Below the pieces are notes generated by a model. It searched no databases, was not told where the DNA came from, and saw only the letters and a list, made by a program, of their open reading frames with translations. This document shows positions 6,512 to 64,000 of a stretch of DNA of 64,000 bases, in pieces (positions within the stretch are counted from its first letter, which is position 1; each line of letters starts with the position of its first letter). Both the position numbers and the translations under genes were made by a program. Origin of the DNA: Paracoccaceae bacterium (GTDB lineage Bacteria > Pseudomonadota > Alphaproteobacteria > Rhodobacterales > Rhodobacteraceae); assembly GCA_013214575.1 (NCBI GenBank), contig JABSSD010000007.1, positions 1-64,000 on the forward strand, given 5' to 3'.

Positions 6512-7879
6512 TTACCGGTAGGTCACTTGTTTCACAGCGGCAATCACCTCGTCGGTAGTGATCAGCGCCAGTTTTTCGAGGTTGGCAGCATAGGGCATTG
6601 GCACGTCTTTGCCGGTGCAGGTGATGATTGGCGCGTCCAGATAGTCAAACGCCTGCTGCATCACCTCGGAGGCGATGTAGCTGCCGACCGAGCCCTGGGG
6701 CCAGCCTTCCTCAACAGTCACCAGGCGGTTGGTCTTCATCACCGATTTGATCACCGTGGGCAGATCCATCGGTCGCAGGGTGCGCAGGTCGATGACCTCG
6801 GCTGAAATACCATCTTCGGCCAGCTTATCAGCGGCTTCCAGCGCATACTGCATGCCGATGCTGAAGGAGACGATGGTGACGTCGGTGCCGGTGCGGCAGA
6901 TTTTGGCCTTGCCGAAGGGCACGGTGAAATCATCCAGTTTGGGCACGTCAAAGGCGCGACCATAGAGCATTTCATTCTCCAGGAAGATCACCGGGTTTGG
7001 ATCGCGGATTGCCGATTTCAGCAAGCCTTTGGCGTCGGAGGCCGAGTAGGGCGTCACCACCTTGAGACCGGGAATCTGCATGTACCAGGCGGCAAAACAC
7101 TGGCTGTGCTGGGCGCCAACCCGGGAGGCGGCGCCATTGGCACCGCGGAACACCATGGGGGCCCCCATCTGACCACCGGACATATACAATGTCTTGGCCG
7201 CCGAGTTGATGATCTGGTCCATCGCCTGCATGGCGAAGTTGAAGGTCATGAACTCGACAATTGGTTTCAGCCCACCAAAGGCGGCGCCGACGGCGATGCC
7301 GGTGAAGCCGTGCTCGGTGATTGGGGTGTCGATGACGCGCTTGGCGCCAAATTCGTCCAGCAAGCCCTGCGAGATTTTGTAAGCGCCCTCATATTCAGCG
7401 ACTTCTTCGCCCATCAGAAAGACGTTTTCGTCGGCGCGCATCTCTTCGGCCATAGCGTCGCGCAGGGCGACGCGGACCGTGGTTTGCACCAGTTCGGTGC
7501 CCTCGGGCCAATCTGGGGTCTGCTCGGCGGCTGCAGCAACCGGGCTTTCTGGAGAGCTGACGGTGGCCCTTGCCGCAGGAGCGGGGGATGCGGCTACGGA
7601 TGGAGCTGCGGCTACCGGGGTTGCATCCAGCGCTTCGCCGTCCTCAAGCAGAATGGCGATGGCGGTATTGACCTTGACCGCCTCGGTGCCCTCGGCGATC
7701 AGGATCTTGCCGATCACCCCCTCATCAACGGCTTCGAACTCCATCGTTGCCTTGTCGGTTTCGATCTCGGCCATCACATCGCCGGATTTGACCGTATCGC
7801 CCTCTTTGACCAGCCATTTGGCCAGCGTGCCTTCCTCCATGGTGGGGGACAGTGCGGGCATCAGAATTTCAGTTGCCAT
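6512..7879 (-). CDS. pdhB: Pyruvate dehydrogenase E1 component, beta subunit with N-terminal lipoyl domain
   Basis: Beta subunit of the heterotetrameric thiamin-diphosphate E1 that decarboxylates pyruvate. The 455-residue chain has an extra N-terminal lipoyl domain (residues 1-80, Lys43) nearly identical to that of the adjacent E2, a linker, then the transketolase pyrimidine-binding domain (about 130-310, [34 protein letters not shown]) and the transketolase C-terminal domain (about 320-450). A fused lipoyl domain on E1 beta is known from alphaproteobacteria. The gene starts 14 bases after pdhA ends and precedes pdhC by 12 bases, so the three are clearly one operon. Confidence 0.96.
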
Positions 7880-8932: not shown

Positions 8933-9081
8933 ATAAAGGATTTTCAAGCCGGTGGCGAGAGATTTTGTGACGTGGGGTTTTGGGCCGCTAAGCCCGGCTG
9001 GATACCGTTGCAGAGGCTGCCAGAACTGGTGCCCGGTGTAAGGGGGCAGCGCCGGTGGTATTGCTGGTGGTGCAAGGGGGG

Positions 9082-9381
9082 TTAACGGATCACGATCTCG
9101 TCGGCGCGCAATACGCCGAGAACCGAGCGGGCCTGTTCGTCGAGGAGGTCCAGATCAAGGAAGGTGTCGGATAGCCGATGGGTGAGGTTTTCCATCTGCG
9201 CAATGTCATGATTGAGCCGGGTGAGATCGCGGTTCAAAGTCTCTGCCTCTGCCGCGATCTCGACCCTGCGAAACAACCCGAAATCCCCCTGTACCGCCGC
9301 AAATGTAAAATATGCGCTGAGCGCAAATGCGGCGGCAAAGAAGGGCAATGAACCAAGGTTGGGTCGATGGTTTCGGGTCAA
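9082..9381 (-). CDS. FtsB/DivIC-like septum formation initiator protein
   Basis: A 99-residue bitopic membrane protein with a short cytoplasmic N-terminus, one transmembrane helix (about residues 11-30, LPFFAAAFALSAYFTFAAVQ), and a coiled-coil stretch (about 40-75) ending in LDLLDEQARSVLGVLRADEIVIR, the layout of the FtsB/DivIC family. FtsB joins FtsL and FtsQ to activate septal peptidoglycan synthesis. It lies between pgk and pdhA on the same strand, as in other Rhodobacterales. Sequence conservation in this family is low, so the assignment rests on size, topology and context. Confidence 0.8.
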   Translation of the reverse strand: MTRNHRPNLGSLPFFAAAFALSAYFTFAAVQGDFGLFRRVEIAAEAETLNRDLTRLNHDIAQMENLTHRLSDTFLDLDLLDEQARSVLGVLRADEIVIR

Positions 9382-9615
9382 TTTGGAAGTGCCTGTATGG
9401 TCTGCTCAAGTTTTATGTAGCGCCGGTTGATCCCGCGTCTGTCATTGGTATGACACAAGCGAATCAGCTTGTGAATCCCCTTTGGGTCCAATGTTGCAAG
9501 TTTTTTCGTTAAGGATTTGGTAGGGAATTAGGGGGCGGCCTTGACAGCCACGGCCTCCGGCGGGGATATTTAGGGCCAGATGAAGCCGGGGCTGTGGCCA
9601 GTGTTGGGGCCAGGG

Positions 9616-10806
9616 TTAGCAGCTCAGGGCGGCAACGCCGGGCAGTGTTTTGCCCTCCATCCATTCCAGAAAGGCGCCGCCGGCGGTGGAAATATAGCTG
9701 AAATCAGCGGCGACATTGGCCTGGTTGAGGGCGGCAACCGTATCGCCTCCGCCTGCGCCGCTGATCAGGTCGCCGGATTTGGTCAGCGCCGCGGCCTGTT
9801 GGGCGGCGGCTGTGGTGGCGGCGTCAAAAGGCGGTAGCTCAAAGGCGCCCATGGGACCGTTCCAGATCAGGGTTTTGGCGGTGGCCAATATGGCAGCCAT
9901 GGCGGCGACGGTGGCGGGGCCGGCATCCAGGATCATCGCATCTGGCGGGCAGGCATCAGCGGCAACGGTTTCATTGTCGGCACCGGCTTTGAACTCGCGG
10001 GCCACCACGATGTCGCTGGGCAGCAGGATCTTGCAGCCGGTGGTCTTGGCCTTAGCGATTATGGCGAGGGCGGTACCGGTGAGGTCATGTTCGCACAGGG
10101 ATTTGCCAACCGCGTGACCCTGGGCGGCGAGGAAGGTATTGGCCATGCCGCCGCCGATCACCAGGTGATCTACTTTTTCGACCAGATTGCCGAGCAGTTC
10201 CAGCTTGGACGACACTTTGGCACCGCCGACAACGGCCACCAGGGGCCGCTTGGGCTGAGCCAGGGCGCCTTCGAGCGCCGAGAGTTCGGCCTGCATCAGG
10301 CGGCCGGCACAGGCGGGCAGCAAATGGGCCAGGCCTTCAGTTGAGGCATGGGCGCGGTGGGCGGCGGAGAAGGCATCGTTGCAGTAGATATCGCCAAGCT
10401 GCGCCATCTCGGCGGCCAGACCTGGGTCGTTGCTTTCTTCGCCGCGATGGAAACGGGTGTTTTCCAGCAGCAGGATCTGACCGGGTTGCAGGGCTGCAAT
10501 GGCGGCCTGGGCGGCGGGGCCGCGGCAGTCGGCACAAAACACCACCGGCGCGCCAAAGGCAGCCGCCAGCACGGGTTGCAGCGGCAGCAGCGACATCTCG
10601 GGCACCACCTGGCCCTTGGGTCGGCCAAAATGCGCCAATAGGATCGGGGTGCCGCCCCGGGCCAGAATATCGCGGACCGAGGGCACCAGGCGGCGGATGC
10701 GGCTGTCGTCGCTGACCTGGCCGTTTTCCATCGGTACGTTGATATCAACGCGCAGCAACACTTTTTTGCCTGCCAGTTCCATATCGTCCAGCGTGTTCCA
10801 GCCCAT
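9616..10806 (-). CDS. pgk: Phosphoglycerate kinase
   Basis: Glycolytic and gluconeogenic enzyme that interconverts 1,3-bisphosphoglycerate plus ADP and 3-phosphoglycerate plus ATP. The 396-residue protein shows the N-terminal signature [18 protein letters not shown], the substrate basic patch ([10 protein letters not shown]), [13 protein letters not shown], the hinge [17 protein letters not shown], and the C-terminal nucleotide site with [16 protein letters not shown] and [11 protein letters not shown]. Length is normal for the family. The 234 bp between its stop and ftsB contain only a weak 7-bp hairpin (9454-9473). Confidence 0.97.
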
Positions 10807-54361: not shown

Positions 54362-55450
54362 TCAGGTGTGACCAACGTCGTGACGGGCCACCGACACTGA
54401 TTTAAGGATGGCATGGCAGCGCAACCCGGGGGCAAGTTGCAGCGCATTTGCCGATCTCAAAGTGATCCGCGCCAGCAGCAAATCGCTGCCGCAGCGCATT
54501 TGGACAACAACACCCGGACCACCCCCGGCGCGAATTTCGGTCACGGTCCCCGACAGGATATTCAATGCCGAAAGCCCCTTTGGTGCATCGCGGGACAGGA
54601 TCACGTCCTGTGCCAGGATACGCACCCGGGTTTTGGCGCTGGGCTGCAGGTTGATTTGGGGCAGGAGCAGGCGGCCCCCGGACACGGTCAGTTCCGTCAG
54701 CCCATCAGAATGGTGTGTTTTGACCACTGCCGGCAGCACCGAGCCGGCCTCGCGCAGGCCCAGGTGACGCACCATCGCAGGGTCGGAAAATACCTGCTCT
54801 GTTGGCCCCGCCTGCGCCACTTGCCCCTGTTCCAGCACCACCACGGTTGTCGCCAGCCTGGCCACTTCGGCGACCGAGTGGCTGACATATAAGATCGGCA
54901 GTCCGGTTGAATCGCGAAGCTGTTCCAGAAACGGCAGGATTTCGTCCTTGCGGGCACTGTCGAGCGCCGCAAGGGGTTCGTCCATCAGCAGCATCTGTGG
55001 CTGCGACAGCAAGGCGCGACCGATCGCGACCCGTTGCTTTTCGCCGCCTGACAAGGTCCCGGGGCGGCGGTGCAGCAGGGATGAGATGCCGAGCAAGGCG
55101 GTGACCTCCTCCAGATCGGGGCCGCTGCTTCCGCTGGGCGCAAAGCGTTTGCCGTAGTTGAGGTTTCCCAGCACCGACAGATGCGGAAACAGACGGGAGT
55201 CCTGAAAGACATAGCCCAGACGGCGGCGGTGCGCGGGCAGATTTATCCCGGCCTTGCTGTCGAACAGAACCTCGGACTGGGTGGCTATGCGACCTGCATC
55301 GGGGGTCAGCAGGCCAGCGACCGCATTGATGACGGTGGTCTTGCCGGATCCGGACTTGCCAAAAAGGGCGGTGATGCCGCTGGGCGCCTGAAACGCCACC
55401 TGAACGGTTAGATCCCCCAGCTTGTGGCTGATATCGACAGACAGGCTCAT
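54362..55450 (-). CDS. modC: Molybdate ABC transporter ATP-binding protein
   Basis: ATPase of the molybdate importer. The 362-residue protein has Walker A (ALFGKSGSGKTTVINAVAG), signature LSGGEKQRVAIGRALLSQP, Walker B LLMDEPLAALD, and a C-terminal TOBE/MOP domain (about 290-355) for oxyanion sensing. It overlaps modB by 4 bases. Last gene of modA-modB-modC. Confidence 0.94.
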   Translation of the reverse strand: MSLSVDISHKLGDLTVQVAFQAPSGITALFGKSGSGKTTVINAVAGLLTPDAGRIATQSEVLFDSKAGINLPAHRRRLGYVFQDSRLFPHLSVLGNLNYGKRFAPSGSSGPDLEEVTALLGISSLLHRRPGTLSGGEKQRVAIGRALLSQPQMLLMDEPLAALDSARKDEILPFLEQLRDSTGLPILYVSHSVAEVARLATTVVVLEQGQVAQAGPTEQVFSDPAMVRHLGLREAGSVLPAVVKTHHSDGLTELTVSGGRLLLPQINLQPSAKTRVRILAQDVILSRDAPKGLSALNILSGTVTEIRAGGGPGVVVQMRCGSDLLLARITLRSANALQLAPGLRCHAILKSVSVARHDVGHT

Positions 55451-56145
55451 CGACCGTTGATCCGTTTTGCTGCACTGCGGGCCAGCATTTCCGAGGCAAG
55501 CAGCGCCGCCATAGCGACCGCGACGGAAACCGCGACCAACTTTAGCGCATCACTTTCGCCGTCCGGCACCTGCAGGAATCCATAGATCGCCGAAGGCAGC
55601 GTTTGGGTTCGTCCGGGAATATTGGCAACAAAGGTAATGGTGGCGCCAAATTCTCCCATGGCTTTGGCAAAGCCCAGCACCGCACCGGTGATCAGCCCCG
55701 GCAGAATGAGGGGCAGGGTGATGGTGGCAAAAACCGATAACCGCGAGGCCCCCAATGTGGCGGCGGCTTGCTCCAGATCGGGATCTACCGCCTCAATCGC
55801 CAGTCGGATCGCGCGCACCATCAACGGAAACCCCATGATGGCAGCCGCCAGCACCGCGCCTGTCCAGCGAAAGGCCAGCACCAGACCAAAGCTCTGCTCC
55901 AGCCAGGCGCCCAGCGGTGCCCGGCGGCCAAAGGTGATCAGCAAAAGATATCCGGTCACCACCGGAGGCAGGAACAGCGGCAAATGCACCAGTGCATTCA
56001 GCATTTGCTTGCCGGGGAACTGCCAGCGCGCCAGCGCATGCGAGACCAGCAGCGCCAGGGGCAGGTTTATCAGCGTCGCCCAAAACCCCACCTTTAGCGA
56101 CAGTCCCAGCGCCGCCCATTCTTCAGGGCCCAGCCAAGTGCTCAT
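55447..56145 (-). CDS. modB: Molybdate ABC transporter permease
   Basis: A 232-residue inner-membrane permease with about five helices and the ABC-permease loop with EAA motif (EAVDPDLEQAAATLGASRLSVF). It overlaps both modA and modC by 4 bases, so all three are coupled. Supplies molybdate for molybdenum cofactor enzymes. Confidence 0.94.
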   Translation of the reverse strand: MSTWLGPEEWAALGLSLKVGFWATLINLPLALLVSHALARWQFPGKQMLNALVHLPLFLPPVVTGYLLLITFGRRAPLGAWLEQSFGLVLAFRWTGAVLAAAIMGFPLMVRAIRLAIEAVDPDLEQAAATLGASRLSVFATITLPLILPGLITGAVLGFAKAMGEFGATITFVANIPGRTQTLPSAIYGFLQVPDGESDALKLVAVSVAVAMAALLASEMLARSAAKRINGR

Positions 56146-56918
56146 GGCTGCACCTGCGGGCGAATAAAGCCATGTTTGGCAAAGACCGCCCAGGCCGTCT
56201 CGCTGCTGAGAAAATCATAGACAGCGCGCGCCTCGGGGGTGACCGGATCAATCAGCGCCATCGGATAGCGAATTGGCCTATGGCTGTCGGCCGGAAACAG
56301 GCCAAGCAACCGGACATCGGGTGCGGCCCCCAGGTCACTGGCATAGACGATCCCCAGCGGCGCCTCGCCGGTTGCTACCAGTCTGAGCGCGGCGCGGACA
56401 GTGTCTGCCTGTGCGATCTTGCCCTGAACATCGTCCCAAACGCCCAATGCCTGCAGCGCTTCGCGGCCATAGATCCCCGCCGGAACCGCCTTGACCAGCG
56501 CCATGGCCAGAACCCCGCCGCCAACGGCAGCAGCCAGATCAAAGCCGCGGGCAGGGGTCAGTTGCACTGTGCTGCCCGGCGCCGCAATCAACACCAGACG
56601 ATTGCTCAGCAGATCAATGCGACGGTCTTGGGCCAGTACTCCGTCCCGCTCCAGCCGGTCCATCCAGGCTTGATTTGCCGAAATGAACAGCTGCGCAGGT
56701 GCGCCCTGAAGGATCTGCCGCGTCAGTGAAGAGCTGCCACCATAGGCGATCCGTAAGCTGTCGCCCGGATATACATCCGACAATTCGTCCAGCGCGCTTT
56801 TCAGGCTGGCGGCGGCAAACAGGGTGACCTGTTCAGCGGCCAGCGCGGCAGGAAACAGTGCCGCACAGACAGCCAGGGCTGAGGTCAGTCGGCGGAGAGG
56901 GCAGGGCATCGTCATCAT
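56142..56918 (-). CDS. modA: Molybdate ABC transporter substrate-binding protein
   Basis: A 258-residue periplasmic binding protein with a signal peptide (residues about 1-28, LTSALAVCAALFPAALAAEQ). The oxyanion-binding stretches LFAAASLKSALDEL, YGGSSSLTRQILQGAPAQLFIS are present. The start has three in-frame ATGs (56918, 56915, 56909). First of modABC; the preceding hypothetical gene ends 5 bases upstream. Confidence 0.93.
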   Translation of the reverse strand: MMTMPCPLRRLTSALAVCAALFPAALAAEQVTLFAAASLKSALDELSDVYPGDSLRIAYGGSSSLTRQILQGAPAQLFISANQAWMDRLERDGVLAQDRRIDLLSNRLVLIAAPGSTVQLTPARGFDLAAAVGGGVLAMALVKAVPAGIYGREALQALGVWDDVQGKIAQADTVRAALRLVATGEAPLGIVYASDLGAAPDVRLLGLFPADSHRPIRYPMALIDPVTPEARAVYDFLSSETAWAVFAKHGFIRPQVQP

Positions 56919-57976: not shown

Positions 57977-58052
57977 GCCCCTATAGCTCAGCTGGTAGAG
58001 CAACTGATTTGTAATCAGTAGGTCCGCGGTTCGAGTCCGTGTGGGGGCACCA
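57977..58052 (+). tRNA. tRNA-Thr (anticodon TGT)
   Basis: A 76-nt cloverleaf including encoded CCA: acceptor GCCCCTA pairs with TGGGGGC, D-arm GCTCAGCTGGTAGAGC, anticodon arm ACTGA-TTTGTAA-TCAGT (anticodon TGT, reading ACA), and T-loop TTCGAGT. The 3' end lies within a 39-bp direct repeat that marks an integration site. Confidence 0.95.
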
Positions 58053-58069
58053 TATAATCAATGACTTAG
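58031..58069. repeat. Attachment-site-like direct repeat, copy 1 (in tRNA-Thr)
   Basis: The first copy of a 39-bp perfect direct repeat; it covers the T-loop, acceptor arm and CCA of tRNA-Thr and 17 further bases. The second copy is 58359-58397. This is the pattern left by tyrosine-integrase elements that insert at tRNA 3' ends. Confidence 0.8.
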
Positions 58070-58305
58070 TTGATTAGTTCCAAAGTCTCTTTCGAGTGGC
58101 TTCCACATAGCTACCACTGGACAAGATTTCGTGCGCTCTTCGAGATGACCACCTCAGCGTCGGCATCGATCCGACAAGATCAATGAGAATCATTTCCTGA
58201 ATCAATGTGAAAGTTTAGCGGCCCACCCAGACAGGCCTGCATACTTTATTAGACCGATTGTAAGTCAAAATGACAAACTCCTTACATGTGTTATCCCACC
58301 ACAAA

Positions 58306-58380
58306 GGCGAGTTGGCAGAGTGGTGACACAGCGGATTGAAAGTCCTCGTGTCGGTGGCTCGAGTCCGTGTGGGGGCACCA
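58306..58380 (+). pseudogene. tRNA-like remnant, chimeric
   Basis: The 5' half (GGCGAGTTGGCAGAGTGGT, then GCGGATTGAAAGTCC) resembles a tRNA, nearest to tRNA-Cys in my memory. The 3' end is identical to tRNA-Thr, including GGGGGCACCA. The acceptor arms do not pair and the anticodon and T stems have mismatches, so it is probably not functional. It looks like a recombination product of insertion into tRNA genes. Confidence 0.45.
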
Positions 58381-58397
58381 TATAATCAATGACTTAG
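58359..58397. repeat. Attachment-site-like direct repeat, copy 2
   Basis: Identical over 39 bp to 58031-58069, with weaker similarity continuing some 13 bases beyond. The 328-bp spacing suggests either a small stacked insertion or a recombination scar next to the larger restriction island. Confidence 0.8.
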
Positions 58398-58647
58398 GTG
58401 AACTAGTTGCACCCTGCGTTATCCGCGGATTCCAAGCGGGTTCCAAGCGGGTTCCAAAATCTTATAGCTGTTTGATCTGGTCCCCAATTTGGATTGAGGC
58501 GCTTTAATTGACGTCGACGGGCACCGCGCCATCGTCTGTCGTGCATACCTATGACCTAAATGTATCTTTGAATAGCAATCGACTCTGCCAAAATTGGTTA
58601 GTAGAATGATCAAAAATATTATCAACTATAGCGGCAGTGCAATCCAA

Positions 58648-60201
58648 ATGACGAACAACACACGGAAATCCGACCTCGATTTCGCCGCCGACCTTTTCAA
58701 AGCCGCCGACAAAATGCGTGGCTCTCTGGAGCCCTCTGAATATAAACACGTCGCTCTGGGCCTGATTTTCCTCAAGTATATCTCCGAAGCCTTCCAGGCT
58801 ATGCACGATCAACTGAGCGAGAATGAATACGCAGATCCGGAAGAGCCGGAAGAATACCTGGCCGAAAATGTCTTTTGGGTGCCCGTAGCAGCCCGTTGGG
58901 ATTTCATTCAACAAAGTGCCCGCTCTGAAAATATCGGCAAGATCATCGATGACGCCATGGAGGCAATCGAGGCCGTTCCCACCAATGAAAGCCTCAAAGG
59001 CGTTCTACCCAAAACTTACGCTCGTCCCACGCTGGATAAGACCATGCTGGGTGAGCTGGTCGATCTATTCTCTAACATCAAGCTGCATGACAGCACCGAC
59101 CGTGCCCGCGACCTCCTGGGACGTGTCTATGAGTACTTTATCTCCGGTTTTGCCAGCGCGGAGGGCAAACGTGGTGGCGAATTCTTTACCCCTCGTTCTG
59201 TCGTGCGCACTCTTGTTGAGATGCTGGAACCCTATCAGGGCCGCGTCTATGATCCATGCTGTGGCTCTGGCGGCATGTTCATCCAGTCAGAGAAATTCAT
59301 CGATGAACACGGTGGGCGACCCGATGACATCGCCGTCTATGGTCAAGAGATCAACCACACCACATGGCGTCTGGCGAAAATGAACCTTGCGGTGCATGGC
59401 ATTGATGCGGACATCGGCTGGGACAGCGCCGGTAGCTTTCACAAAGACAGCCACCCAAACCTCAAGGCCGACTATATCCTCGCCAACCCGCCGTTTAATA
59501 TCTCGGACTGGGGCGGTGATCGCCTGACCGAGGATGTGCGTTGGCAATATGGCACCCCGCCCAAGGGCAACGCCAACTTTGCTTGGATCCAACATATCAT
59601 CCATCACCTCGCCCCGCGCGGCCATGCGGGGGTGGTGCTGGCCAATGGTTCGATGTCCAGCCAAACCAGTGGCGAGGGTGACATCCGTAAAAAGCTGATC
59701 GAGGAAGGCCGTGTCGATTGTATGGTCGCCCTGCCGGGGCAGCTGTTCTATTCCACCCAAATTCCCGTCTGCCTGTGGATCCTGTCGCGGGACAAGTCGG
59801 CAAATGGCCATCGTGACCGCAAAGGCGAGATCCTGTTCATCGATGCCCGCAACATGGGCCATATGGTCGACCGCGTGCGCCGCGAATTTTCTGACAACGA
59901 TATTGAGAAGATTGCAGGCACCTACCGCCGCTGGCGCGCCAAGCCCGAAACCATCGAGGACAAAGGCTGGGACGCCTACGCGGATGAAGCAGGATTCTGC
60001 AAGTCAGAGGGGCTAGAAGTCATCCGCAAACACGACCACGTGCTGACTCCGGGGCGCTATGTTGGAGCAGCCGAGGTCGAGGATGACGGGGTGCCGTTTG
60101 AGGAGAAAATTGCAACTTTTAAAACTACTCTAAAAGAGCAGTTTTCTTTGGGTGAGAAGTTGCAAACCAGAATTTCCGTGTCACTGGAGCTCCTAAAGTG
60201 A
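58648..60201 (+). CDS. hsdM: Type I restriction-modification system, DNA methyltransferase subunit M
   Basis: N6-adenine methyltransferase subunit. The 517-residue protein from ATG 58648 (frame open from 58594) has the HsdM N-terminal helical domain ([20 protein letters not shown]), the SAM motif [13 protein letters not shown], catalytic motif [14 protein letters not shown], and the HsdM C-terminal features ([15 protein letters not shown]). Its TGA overlaps the GTG start of hsdS (GTGA). It methylates host DNA together with HsdS. Confidence 0.94.
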
Positions 60202-61436
60202 GTGACCAACAAGAAAATTCACTTGAAGAGATGTGTGAACTGATTGTTGACTGCCCCCATTCGACGCCAAAATGGACGGACAGCGGTCACCTAGTAATCA
60301 GAAACCAAAACATACGTAATGGTCGTCTCGACCTCGCTAAAAAAAGCTATACAAATCACAAAGACTATCTTGTGCGAGTGCGGCGAGCAGTTCCGCAATC
60401 GGGGGATCTAATATTCACCCGTGAAGCCCCCATGGGGGAAATATGCCAAGTTCCTGAGGGTCTCGATTGCTGCATTGGACAGAGACAGGTTTTATTGCGT
60501 CCCGCAATAAACGTTTCGTCGGATTACTTATTGTATGCAATGCAATCGCCTTACGTGAGGGATCAAATTCTCTGGAATGAAGGCACGGGGTCGACAGTTA
60601 GCAATGTCAGAATTCCTGTTTTGAAAAAGCTGAAAATTCCACGTCGAGGCAACAATGAAACCCAGATTGCGTTAATCTTAAAGCAGCTAGACGACAAAAT
60701 CGATTTGAACCGGCGGATGAATGAGACGTTGGAAGAGATGGCGCGGGCACTGTTTCGGGATTGGTTCGTCGATTTCGGCCCCACCCGCCGCCAAATCGCC
60801 GGAGAAACCGACCCCGCCGCTATCATGGGCCACGCCTTCCTCGTAGACAAAGCCCTCCCCCTGGCCCCCCAATTCCCCGCCAACCTCGGCAAAAATGGAC
60901 TGCCTGAGGGGTGGGCGTCGCGCGAACTTAGAACAGCGTTGACGTTAAATTATGGAAAATCCCTGCCCAAAAAGTCCAGAATAGAGGGAGGCTATAAGGT
61001 CTATGGCTCTGGCGGCGTTACGGGCACACACAAAGAATCGCTGGCTAAAGGCCCGTCAACCATTGTTGGCCGCAAGGGTACTGTAGGTAGTCTATACTGG
61101 TCCCGCGATGACTTTTTTGCCATCGATACGGTATTCTATGTCACATCTGATTACCCCATGGTCTTTTGTCACCGGCTTCTAGAAACGCTCGGCCTTGAAA
61201 CAATGAACACCGATGCGGCGGTCCCAGGATTGAACCGAGACAACGCTTACAGGCAAGAATTTGCGTTTGGTGGGGAAGACTTAATTCATGCCTACGCCGA
61301 ATTTTGCGATGCGTTGACTGAGAAATCAGATGCAAACAATTTGGAAAACCAAACCCTCGCCGCCCTGCGCGATCTGCTTTTGCCCAAACTCATGTCCGGC
61401 GAAATCCGCTTGAAAGATATGGAGGGGATGGAGTGA
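60198..61436 (+). CDS. hsdS: Type I restriction-modification system, specificity subunit S
   Basis: DNA-recognition subunit. The 412-residue protein (GTG start at 60198 overlapping hsdM) has two target-recognition domains (about 1-150 and 210-360), a central conserved spacer helix ([19 protein letters not shown] then [16 protein letters not shown]) and a C-terminal conserved region ([19 protein letters not shown]). Recognition sequence cannot be read from the protein. Base composition is lower in GC in the recognition domains than in the spacer, as usual for exchanged domains. It overlaps the next gene by 4 bases. Confidence 0.93.
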
Positions 61437-62179
61437 AAGAACTCTGCCCCAATATTTATGACTTTACCCGCCATTGGTCCTCGGCTCCGAATGTTGCACA
61501 AGCTTTTGAAGCGCTTGTACTGGTTGACAAGGCAGACAATGACGGAGTGATTTGTGCGTCAAAGGCGATGGTTGAATGTGCATGTAAGACCATCGTTGAG
61601 GAGCTGGACGATCCGTCCAATCCGATAAAAGGTTGGCCGAACTCCCCTATCAAATCCGCTGACCCCACTATGGGGAACTGGATGGCCGCTGCTACCAACC
61701 TCCTGAATTTGGTGAGTGACAAAACAGACGCATTCAACAGTGTCATTGGCCAGTATAATGAGTTGGCGACAAAGCTGGGACGCTTTAGGAATAAAGCAGG
61801 GACCATCGCTCATGGCCGGATGGGGTTTGAACAAAAATTGTCAGCTCACCATAGGCGAACCGCCTTAATAACCGCTGATACAGTTATCGGTTTTTTACAT
61901 GATGCCTATCTGTCAATACAAACAGATCCCACCAGTTCCTTTGAGCCCTACGATCGGTTTCCAGAAGCAAACAAAGCAATCGACACGAGCAGTGCATTCT
62001 TAAAGGTTCAAATTGAAGAAGACGGCACGCTGTACGGAAAAATTTCACTTGGTTCGAATTCAGAAGAGCATCAATTTTCGGTGTCGGTTTCAGAATTTTT
62101 ATTTGGAACTGATCGATTTGCCTATCGTGAAGCGTTTTTGCAGGCGGGTGGTGTCCATAGTAAGGAGAAGCAGTCATGA
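61433..62179 (+). CDS. Abi_C-like hypothetical protein in the restriction operon
   Basis: A 248-residue protein (GTG start at 61433, overlapping hsdS by 4 bases). The middle region has RFRNKAGTIAHGRMG, which resembles the conserved motif of the abortive-infection C-terminal (Abi_C) family; ICASKAMVECACKTIVEELDD upstream also fits that group. Family assignment is from motif memory only. It overlaps the DUF4268 gene by ATGA, so it is synthesised with the R-M subunits. A defence-related or regulatory role is inferred. Confidence 0.65.
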   Translation: MKELCPNIYDFTRHWSSAPNVAQAFEALVLVDKADNDGVICASKAMVECACKTIVEELDDPSNPIKGWPNSPIKSADPTMGNWMAAATNLLNLVSDKTDAFNSVIGQYNELATKLGRFRNKAGTIAHGRMGFEQKLSAHHRRTALITADTVIGFLHDAYLSIQTDPTSSFEPYDRFPEANKAIDTSSAFLKVQIEEDGTLYGKISLGSNSEEHQFSVSVSEFLFGTDRFAYREAFLQAGGVHSKEKQS

Positions 62180-63147
62180 CCCAACTTGGCCGCCTAGAGC
62201 GCGTTGATCTGCGCGCAGAATGGTCCAAGGAGGACCGTGATTTCACTCCGTGGTTGGCGCAGGAGGAGAATATCGCCCTGTTGGGTGAGACGCTCAAGAT
62301 GTCCCTTGAAGTCGAGGAAGAGGAGCGCCGTGTTGGACGGTTTAGTGCTGACATTTTATGCCGGGATACCGCCACTGCCGAGGGCGACTGGGTCGTCATT
62401 GAAAACCAGCTGGAGACCACGGATCATTCCCATTTAGGGCAGATCATTACCTATGCCGCGGGACTCGAGGCCAAGACCTGCATCTGGGTCGCTGCAAAGT
62501 TCCATGAAGAGCACCGTGCTGCCATTGATTGGCTGAACGAGATTACCGGTGAGGGCCATCAGTTTTTTGCCTTGGAGATCGAGCTTTGGCGGATTGGCGA
62601 GAGCCTGTCAGCCCCCAAATTCAACATCGTTGCCCAGCCTAACGATTGGAAACGGGATATCGGGCGGGCGGCCAAATTGGTGCAGCCTGCACATCTCAGC
62701 CAAACCAAACAGCTGCAACTGGCTTTCTGGACAGCTCTGCAAGAGCGATTGAACGGTCACGTGATGCTCAGGTCGCGCAAACCGCTCCCCCAACACTGGA
62801 CTACATTTTCAATTGGGCGGTCAGGCATGCACTTGGCTGGACTGATCAACACGCGAGAAAACCGCGTGGCAGTTGAACTGCTGCTAGCTGACAAAAATGC
62901 CCAATCCTTCTTTGAACAGTTGCGCCAGGATGAAGAACAAATTGCAGAGGAAACTGGTCTGAATCTGGAATGGTGGCCTATCCCCGACAGCCGCAACAGT
63001 AAAGTGATTACGTTCCATTCTATGCCTGATTTGGGCAACCGGTCCAGCTGGCCAGAGTTGCATAACTGGATGATTGAAACGTTGGAAATAATGCACACGT
63101 GCTTTGCGCCGCGCGTGAAAGCGCTGGTGAGTGGAGAGCAGCATTGA
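62176..63147 (+). CDS. DUF4268 domain protein, restriction-endonuclease-like fold likely
   Basis: A 323-residue protein. The N-terminal half has RFSADILCRDTATAEGDWVV-IENQLETTDHSHLGQ, where Asp and Glu-x-Gln positions match a PD-(D/E)xK-type nuclease core (D...ExQ), then ITYAAGLEAKTCIWVA. The C-terminal half is the DUF4268 domain (LQLAFWTALQERL, ELLLADKNAQSFFEQL). It starts within the previous gene's stop (ATGA), and its stop overlaps the TTG start of hsdR. DUF4268 proteins are often found near R-M or defence genes; function unproven. Confidence 0.75.
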   Translation: MTQLGRLERVDLRAEWSKEDRDFTPWLAQEENIALLGETLKMSLEVEEEERRVGRFSADILCRDTATAEGDWVVIENQLETTDHSHLGQIITYAAGLEAKTCIWVAAKFHEEHRAAIDWLNEITGEGHQFFALEIELWRIGESLSAPKFNIVAQPNDWKRDIGRAAKLVQPAHLSQTKQLQLAFWTALQERLNGHVMLRSRKPLPQHWTTFSIGRSGMHLAGLINTRENRVAVELLLADKNAQSFFEQLRQDEEQIAEETGLNLEWWPIPDSRNSKVITFHSMPDLGNRSSWPELHNWMIETLEIMHTCFAPRVKALVSGEQH

Positions 63148-64000
63148 GTTTTACCGAAGACCTTGTCGAGCAGGCTGCACTGGAAATGTTCCAAGAGTTG
63201 GGCTGGACCTATGCTGAGCCGCAGATGATTGCCCCTGACGGTCCAGAAAAGGCACGTGGATCCTACGGAGAGGTGGTTCTTCGCGATGTGTTGTCTGACG
63301 CGGCGCATAGGCTAAACCCAGATATTCCGGCAGAGGCGATCCATGCGGCAGTCAGACAGGTCCAGATTTCTGAAACGCCCTCACTCATAGAGGAAAATCG
63401 CCGTATTCACCGCCTGTTGGTAGACGGGGTCGACGTTGAGTATCGGCGTGCAGATGGCACTATTAAAGGTGACAAAGTACGGCTGATCGATTTCTCAAAT
63501 CCAACCAACAATGATCTGACCGTCACCAATCAGTTCACGGTGGTTGAGAGTGGACACAACCGCCGCCCGGACATCGTTGCTTTTATCAATGGACTGCCTG
63601 TAGCGGTGATCGAGCTCAAGAATGCCGCCAATGAAAACGCGACCATAACTGACGCCTTCAACCAGCTGCAAACCTATAAGAAACAGATCCCCTCTCTGTT
63701 TCGCACAAATGCTGTTCTGATCACCTCTGACGGCCTTCTGGCGCGCATAGGCTCGCTGAGTGCCGAGGAGGACCGGTTTATGCCTTGGCGCACTGTGACG
63801 GGTGCTCAGGGGGACTTCACGCCCGCAGGCCCAAAAGAAATGGAAACGCTGATCAAGGGGGTGTTTCAACCGGAATATCTGCTTCAGCTGATCCGAGACT
63901 TCACAGTTTTTGGCGACAAAGGCGATGGACCGTTCAAGATTGTAGGCGGCTATCATCAGTTCCACGGTGCGCGCAAAGCACTAAGCAGCGCCATTGATGC
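63144..64000 (+). CDS. hsdR: Type I restriction-modification system, restriction subunit R (partial)
   Basis: The ATP-dependent translocase and nuclease subunit; only the first about 285 codons are in the window and the frame is open at the end. Start is TTG 63144 (LSFTEDLVEQAALEMFQELG), overlapping the DUF4268 stop by TTGA. The N-terminal nuclease domain shows RRPDIVAFINGLPVAVIELK followed by NAFNQLQTYK-like sequence (ITDAFNQLQTYKKQIP), the D...ExK and QxxxY motifs of HsdR nucleases. The helicase domain lies outside the window. Confidence 0.92.
   Translation, partial: MSFTEDLVEQAALEMFQELGWTYAEPQMIAPDGPEKARGSYGEVVLRDVLSDAAHRLNPDIPAEAIHAAVRQVQISETPSLIEENRRIHRLLVDGVDVEYRRADGTIKGDKVRLIDFSNPTNNDLTVTNQFTVVESGHNRRPDIVAFINGLPVAVIELKNAANENATITDAFNQLQTYKKQIPSLFRTNAVLITSDGLLARIGSLSAEEDRFMPWRTVTGAQGDFTPAGPKEMETLIKGVFQPEYLLQLIRDFTVFGDKGDGPFKIVGGYHQFHGARKALSSAID

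Follow-up and report, generated by a model that had tools for sequence, protein, structure and literature searches.

The stretch of DNA analysed here, called the window, comprises positions 1-64000 of a 68640-base contig from a Paracoccaceae bacterium (JABSSD010000007.1) and ends in an operon of five genes on the forward strand, hsdM, hsdS, an Abi_C gene, a DUF4268 gene and hsdR, which follow one another in series. Each start from hsdS onwards shares four nucleotides with the preceding stop codon (GTGA at 60198, GTGA at 61433, ATGA at 62176 and TTGA at 63144), and the five open reading frames and four overlaps noted in a first-pass annotation are all confirmed. Such coupling is found at four of the four junctions in the operon versus three of 21 in the remaining window, counted over co-directional gene pairs that lie at most 200 nucleotides apart and have such a start available. 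The coupling thus exceeds chance and marks the five genes as an operon, but the stoichiometric production that had been read from the overlaps does not follow from them. A scan for promoters and terminators stayed near chance, with ten promoters (6.6 expected) and 12 terminators (9.9 expected).

The operon encodes a complete type I restriction-modification (R-M) system with hsdM, hsdS and a full-length hsdR that bear methylase, nuclease and helicase motifs. The hsdM gene (58648-60201) encodes a type I DNA methyltransferase with an NPPF motif which matches the Pfam families N6_Mtase (E-value 1.9e-107) and HsdM_N (2e-21) and the PADLOC model MTase_I (3.9e-214); its start is unsure, being either the ATG at 58648 or a TTG at 58594, and relatives fail to decide between them. 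The specificity subunit HsdS is encoded at 60198-61436 from a start within the GTGA overlap and matches Methylase_S (3.8e-11) and PADLOC Specificity_I (1.6e-85). The first 285 codons of hsdR lie in the window (63144-64000; HSDR_N, 6e-52), and on the contig the gene continues to position 66281, giving a protein of 1045 residues, counted from the TTG, that carries DEAH and PD...ExK motifs. This TTG start is supported because 39 of 49 relatives start no more than two residues away from it and the remaining ten further upstream. The Pfam curated cut-offs are exceeded by N6_Mtase, HsdM_N, Methylase_S, Abi_C, DUF4268 and HSDR_N, and matches to the NCBIfam models for hsdM and hsdR fall below theirs, hsdR being truncated at the window edge.

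The third gene (61433-62179, forward strand) encodes a protein of 248 residues that matches the Pfam family Abi_C (PF14355; 1.3e-11) with 44.9 bits against a cut-off of 24, and the same family is matched by all 49 aligned members of the subfamily to which the protein belongs. Gene context shows that this subfamily is tied to one HsdR lineage as its dedicated companion, and it is found almost only inside type I R-M operons. A scan with an alignment of four members against one genome per species (84,980 species) returned 65 loci and a scan of viral contigs eight more; the set of 68 loci considered below consists of the window, 59 strong genomic loci (L017-L075) and the eight viral loci. An hsd gene lies near the Abi_C gene in all 68, with hsdR downstream in 65, hsdS upstream in 62 and both in 60. 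Two of the three loci without hsdR stop at a contig edge, and among the eight that are missing hsdS and/or hsdR only L070 is a true exception, the rest being short contigs or contigs that end near the gene. Where the genes overlap or lie less than 60 nucleotides apart, overlaps of one or four nucleotides are seen at 36 of 47 Abi_C/hsdR and 27 of 34 hsdS/Abi_C junctions. The Abi_C genes of six more distant loci (L076-L081) adjoin hsd genes too, in L080 by profile only, and in L079 hsdR was not found. Five loci noticed outside Pseudomonadota (L027, L028, L030, L058, L059) are metagenome-assembled genomes, so that the spread beyond this phylum is uncertain.

As a control, the wider Abi_C family was located at nine places (own genome excluded) in 115 genomes of the same class, where the flanks of up to 1.5 kb gave no match to the hsd profiles, which derive from the present R-M lineage and may fail to detect remote type I families. 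Two weak relatives from the class (L015, L016) likewise have no hsd gene in their flanks, no match to Abi_C was found in plasmids, and PADLOC (PADLOC-DB 2.0.0) gave no match for the two members submitted, namely the window copy (best 0.021) and that of L021. An independent abortive-infection gene, carried in the R-M operon because transfer and expression are shared but without contact with the enzyme, would be expected elsewhere too, as DUF4268 is (hsd match near ten of 66 viral loci), whereas all 68 loci of the Abi_C subfamily contain hsd genes. This independence is rather unlikely for that reason, and it is also at odds with the way in which Abi_C distances track those of HsdM and HsdR. Pairwise distances of Abi_C correlate with those of HsdM (r 0.83) and HsdR (r 0.79) and much less with those of HsdS (0.39) in the 50 of the 68 loci that were compared; the HsdM-HsdR correlation in the same loci is 0.91, somewhat above that of Abi_C with either, and none of these values takes account of shared host descent.

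Co-inheritance with HsdM and HsdR, together with the frequent position of Abi_C next to hsdR and the coupling at 36 of the 47 adjacent junctions, is also what would be seen if Abi_C were a non-toxic accessory subunit modulating the R-M enzyme, for example through control of HsdR assembly or restriction alleviation. Such a role is improbable, as close HsdR relatives exist without Abi_C and the invariant R-N...H-G residues of the protein resemble an active site. In a tree of 96 HsdR sequences all 57 that are accompanied by Abi_C fall into one branch of 68, and none of the 28 outside it bears the gene. The tree was built by quick search and omitted HsdR proteins shorter than 1000 residues or with a stop (including that of G369/L062), weaker HsdR matches, duplicates and L129, where hsdR is preceded by a weak Abi_C-like gene. 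The genomic loci had been picked by Abi_C patterns, and their HsdR sequences are therefore enriched for Abi_C by design; a less biased figure comes from 57 genomes picked by HsdR (mainly the better matches among 96 other genomes matching it), of which three carry the strong subfamily and three more a weak match. Because only three of these 57 genomes with a related HsdR carry it, the enzyme does not need Abi_C. The gene is optional, and it travels with the operon. An essential-subunit role was judged unlikely on the same ground, since Abi_C is missing beside most related hsdR genes.

The branch of 68 also contains 11 HsdR sequences picked by HsdR that lack Abi_C, and in these the readable slots before hsdR hold other cargo: a Fic protein (L115) and a Schlafen AlbA_2 protein (L112) by Pfam; DUF1828-like and DUF6978-like genes (L085) and ImmA/IrrE-like genes (L089, L091), assigned by resemblance alone; and unassigned genes in L113 (no Pfam match), L114 and L116 (no family search). 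The absence of Abi_C from most genomes with a related HsdR, and this replacement by other cargo in its lineage mates, speak for a gene independent of the enzyme. Two exceptional loci also weigh against the toxin reading favoured below. In L070 the Abi_C relative (8983-9738) follows an open reading frame of 742 codons that matches HsdM, and neither hsdS nor hsdR was found in its vicinity; this locus is possibly a relic or a rearranged system. An Abi_C protein whose R and H residues are separated by six others (Rx6H) lies about 1.7 kb before an hsdR in genome G541 and blurs a clean split between the embedded subfamily and the rest of the family.

An AlphaFold2 model of the window Abi_C protein (predicted local distance difference test, pLDDT, 84.2; predicted template modelling score, pTM, 0.73) has a helical core and, after it, a small beta part. 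In this model, E48x3K52 lies in the helix 38-58, R119-N120 ends the helix 100-122 and H127 is found in the loop before the helix 130-160, so that an Ex3[KR] motif in helix 2, an arginine and polar residue closing helix 3 and a histidine in the loop to helix 4 are all in the places expected of HEPN proteins. The same arrangement of residues is described for HEPN RNases, in which the arginine and histidine of the Rx4-6H motif are separated by a spacer of four to six residues (PMC3710099). H127, G123 and G128 are invariant in the 49 aligned sequences, which take in 48 of the 65 loci of the genome scan, and R119 is kept in 48. From these motifs and the predicted helices, the Abi_C protein is most likely a HEPN-type RNase.

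A number of features count against this assignment. The spacer between arginine and histidine is seven residues in all 49 R-M-embedded sequences, which is outside the published range, so that the Rx4-6H motif is not found. The loop that holds H127 is the least certain part of the model, with a pLDDT below 50 at residues 125-127. The Ex3[KR] motif is kept in 40 of the 49 sequences, with Q replacing K/R in seven, E replacing K/R in one and D replacing E in another, and C replaces R119 in L026. The window copy itself deviates at conserved positions, for example at position 41, which is D in 48 of 49 sequences and C in the window. A fold search of the model in PDB and BFVD gave no match below E 0.001, small helical bundles being weak queries; sequence matches in PDB are at chance level only, and no HEPN family is among the Pfam families listed for the 49 members at E up to 10. 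Because of the x7 spacer, the unsure loop and the lack of a PDB or BFVD match below E 0.001 the protein is not filed as HEPN here, although its mode of action is probably that of a HEPN protein.

The spacer differs within family PF14355. While the aligned R-M-embedded members are Rx7H throughout, all 15 distinct Abi_C loci in which no hsd gene was found nearby are Rx6H and thus within the published HEPN range; these are the nine wider-family places in the class genomes together with L015, L016, L173, L253, L254 and L255, and in the numbering of loci L241 and L252 are one place. The seven-residue spacer also occurs in two other Abi_C-like genes that adjoin hsdS (L174, L191).

The gene for PrrC, the best point of comparison, lies between hsdS and hsdR. 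PrrC is an RNase embedded in a type I R-M system; the R-M enzyme keeps it inactive, and it is released once the Stp protein of phage T4 blocks that enzyme (PMC3710099, PMC12707154). The Abi_C gene resembles prrC of the EcoprrI system in being an addition inside a type I R-M operon; PrrC is, however, a fusion of an ABC-ATPase with a HEPN domain that cuts tRNA-Lys, whereas no ATPase domain and no PrrC match was found in the 248 residues of the Abi_C protein. By analogy to PrrC, a guard model is proposed. In this model the assembled HsdM/S/R enzyme would keep Abi_C inactive, a phage anti-restriction protein that disables the enzyme would release it, and the released Abi_C would cut host RNA and so stop the infected cell, as with PrrC. 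The translational coupling would then prevent synthesis of the toxin without its silencer. The favoured reading of the locus is, tentatively and at somewhat less than even odds, a complete type I R-M system with a stand-by, PrrC-like Abi_C toxin silenced by the R-M enzyme and an unrelated DUF4268 defence gene. A bolder form of it, to be held with more reserve still, is that the subfamily constitutes a small ATPase-free family of HEPN-type RNases with a lengthened Rx7H active-site loop that acts as the near-exclusive guard of one type I lineage, in which case the principle of PrrC would have evolved independently a second time. If the guard reading is true, the subfamily would be a recurrent and compact candidate guard of type I restriction beside the well-studied PrrC, and a census of hsdS-hsdR slots would be a practical route to further guards.

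The first-pass annotation had held that the five-gene order is not a described system. The exact order was indeed seen in no other locus examined, but genes embedded in type I R-M systems are known from PrrC and from other cases, so that a layout of this kind is described. TgvAB comprises defence genes within type I R-M clusters (PMC11411939) and DarTG2 is located between hsdS and hsdR (PMC12255303); both resemble the present case in being defence genes inside type I R-M clusters and differ from it in belonging to other protein families and in each forming a two-gene system of its own. TgvAB is also relevant to an Abi_C that works independently of its host operon, since embedded TgvAB protects without HsdMSR, although against several phages the complete cluster protects more strongly (PMC11411939). 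No description of an association of Abi_C, PF14355 or HEPN with type I R-M was found in the available parts of the literature, PMC10121019 included, bioRxiv preprints being outside the scope. That defence genes can be embedded in type I operons is already known; what the present case adds is an Abi_C subfamily dedicated to R-M and the guard role that it is likely to play.

The fourth gene (62176-63147, forward strand) matches Pfam DUF4268 (5.5e-26), and the PADLOC model PDC-S11 covers residues 1-316 of its 323-residue product (4e-119). PDC names denote candidates that entered PADLOC-DB with its guilt-by-embedding release (PMC10855318), and the commonest association of the DUF4268 domain is with GmrSD domains (PMC4619093). 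In the parts of the literature on PDC-S11 and DUF4268 that were available only presence or association is reported and a tested function was not found. The present gene is a full-length match to PDC-S11 and differs from it in standing behind an Abi_C gene. The predicted structure (pLDDT 89.5, pTM 0.56) matches the NucS endonuclease 2vld in Foldseek with E 7.9e-5 at a TM-score below 0.4. D59, E76 and Q78 are invariant in 31 aligned sequences, which take in 30 of the 66 loci of a viral scan, and Q replaces the K of the ExK motif. The protein is predicted from this to have a PD-(D/E)xK-like nuclease fold, and the gene would be a nuclease-like defence gene.

The viral contigs gave nothing when scanned with the single DUF4268 sequence and 66 loci when scanned with an alignment, and an hsd profile match lies near ten of these 66 (flanks of 4 kb). 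In the class sample such a match was found within 1.5 kb of four of 22 DUF4268 loci, window included (L139, L142, L151, L157), that of L151 being weak and on the opposite strand. To judge from this distribution, in which relatives are mostly located away from R-M systems, DUF4268 is a passenger defence gene, which would have been inserted between the Abi_C gene and hsdR. Single DUF4268 genes are also found between hsdS and hsdR in L128, L157 and L236, so the slot accepts DUF4268 repeatedly; this and the coupling of all four operon junctions would suit a joint unit of Abi_C and DUF4268 with the R-M system. That arrangement is highly improbable, and the joint unit was rejected, because the pair was not seen between one hsdS and hsdR in any second locus examined and most DUF4268 relatives lie elsewhere. 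A partial likeness is offered by L191, where an Abi_C-like and a DUF4268 gene follow hsdS, but they are 500 nucleotides apart among phage-like genes and hsdR was not found.

The two extra genes had been proposed to be functional members of the system, and to be incidental insertions if homologous operons lacked them and the genes occurred scattered elsewhere. For DUF4268 the latter is what was found. Abi_C is likewise mostly absent from related operons (three of 57), but it is not scattered, and the recurrence of its subfamily in hsdS-hsdR slots of many hosts supports membership for this gene alone. The operon therefore separates a dedicated partner (Abi_C) from a passenger (DUF4268), which embedding alone cannot do.

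In other operons the slots flanking Abi_C hold a rotating set of defence-like genes, of which 20 representatives were searched in Pfam and nine in PADLOC. PADLOC matches were obtained for an AAA_13 ATPase (PDC-S06), for DUF6978 with DUF1828/1829 (PDC-M24) and for a SIR2 protein (PDC-S65); further cargo includes an ImmA/IrrE-like protein (Peptidase_M78) with DUF4411, GmrSD proteins, RhuM-Fic, a LA2681-type HEPN protein, a KwaB-like protein and DUF3644. Genes of one cluster lie between hsdM and hsdS in six operons (L017 at 7065-7469, L018, L019, L025, L048 and L056), and the L017 member is NTase_sub_bind by Pfam. Another single cluster comprises an ATPase of 763-765 residues encoded directly 3' of Abi_C in eight loci (L057, L059, L063, L064, L065, L068, L069 and L072). 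Its gene shares one base with hsdR in seven of the eight, and the L072 member matches AAA_13, PDC-S06 and, more weakly, PrrC. Abi_C and this ATPase are in these loci two neighbouring guard-like candidates.

Upstream of the operon, a tRNA-Thr (TGT) gene was located by ARAGORN at 57977-58052 on the forward strand and is a possible integration site of an island. A repeat search found a 52-nucleotide direct repeat with copies 92% identical, both on the forward strand. The first (58022-58073) covers the 3' end of the tRNA gene and the second (58350-58401), which resembles an attachment site, lies between tRNA-Thr and hsdM. Because the 3' end of tRNA-Thr recurs in this way 328 nucleotides downstream, the operon, which itself lies downstream of the tRNA gene, may be part of an integrated island. 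Fewer than 300 nucleotides lie between the copies, and the pair may be a scar left by a small or decayed element. The strong Abi_C subfamily was found in none of the seven congeners searched, one of which has a weak match with a stop. Downstream of hsdR, an open reading frame in contig stretch L005 (9814-10779) has no Pfam match, and its end gives the impression of a damaged tyrosine recombinase. Beyond tRNA-Thr, on the side away from the operon, three reverse-strand genes at 54362-56918 of the window resemble the ATPase, permease and binding protein of what we take to be a molybdate-type ABC transporter.

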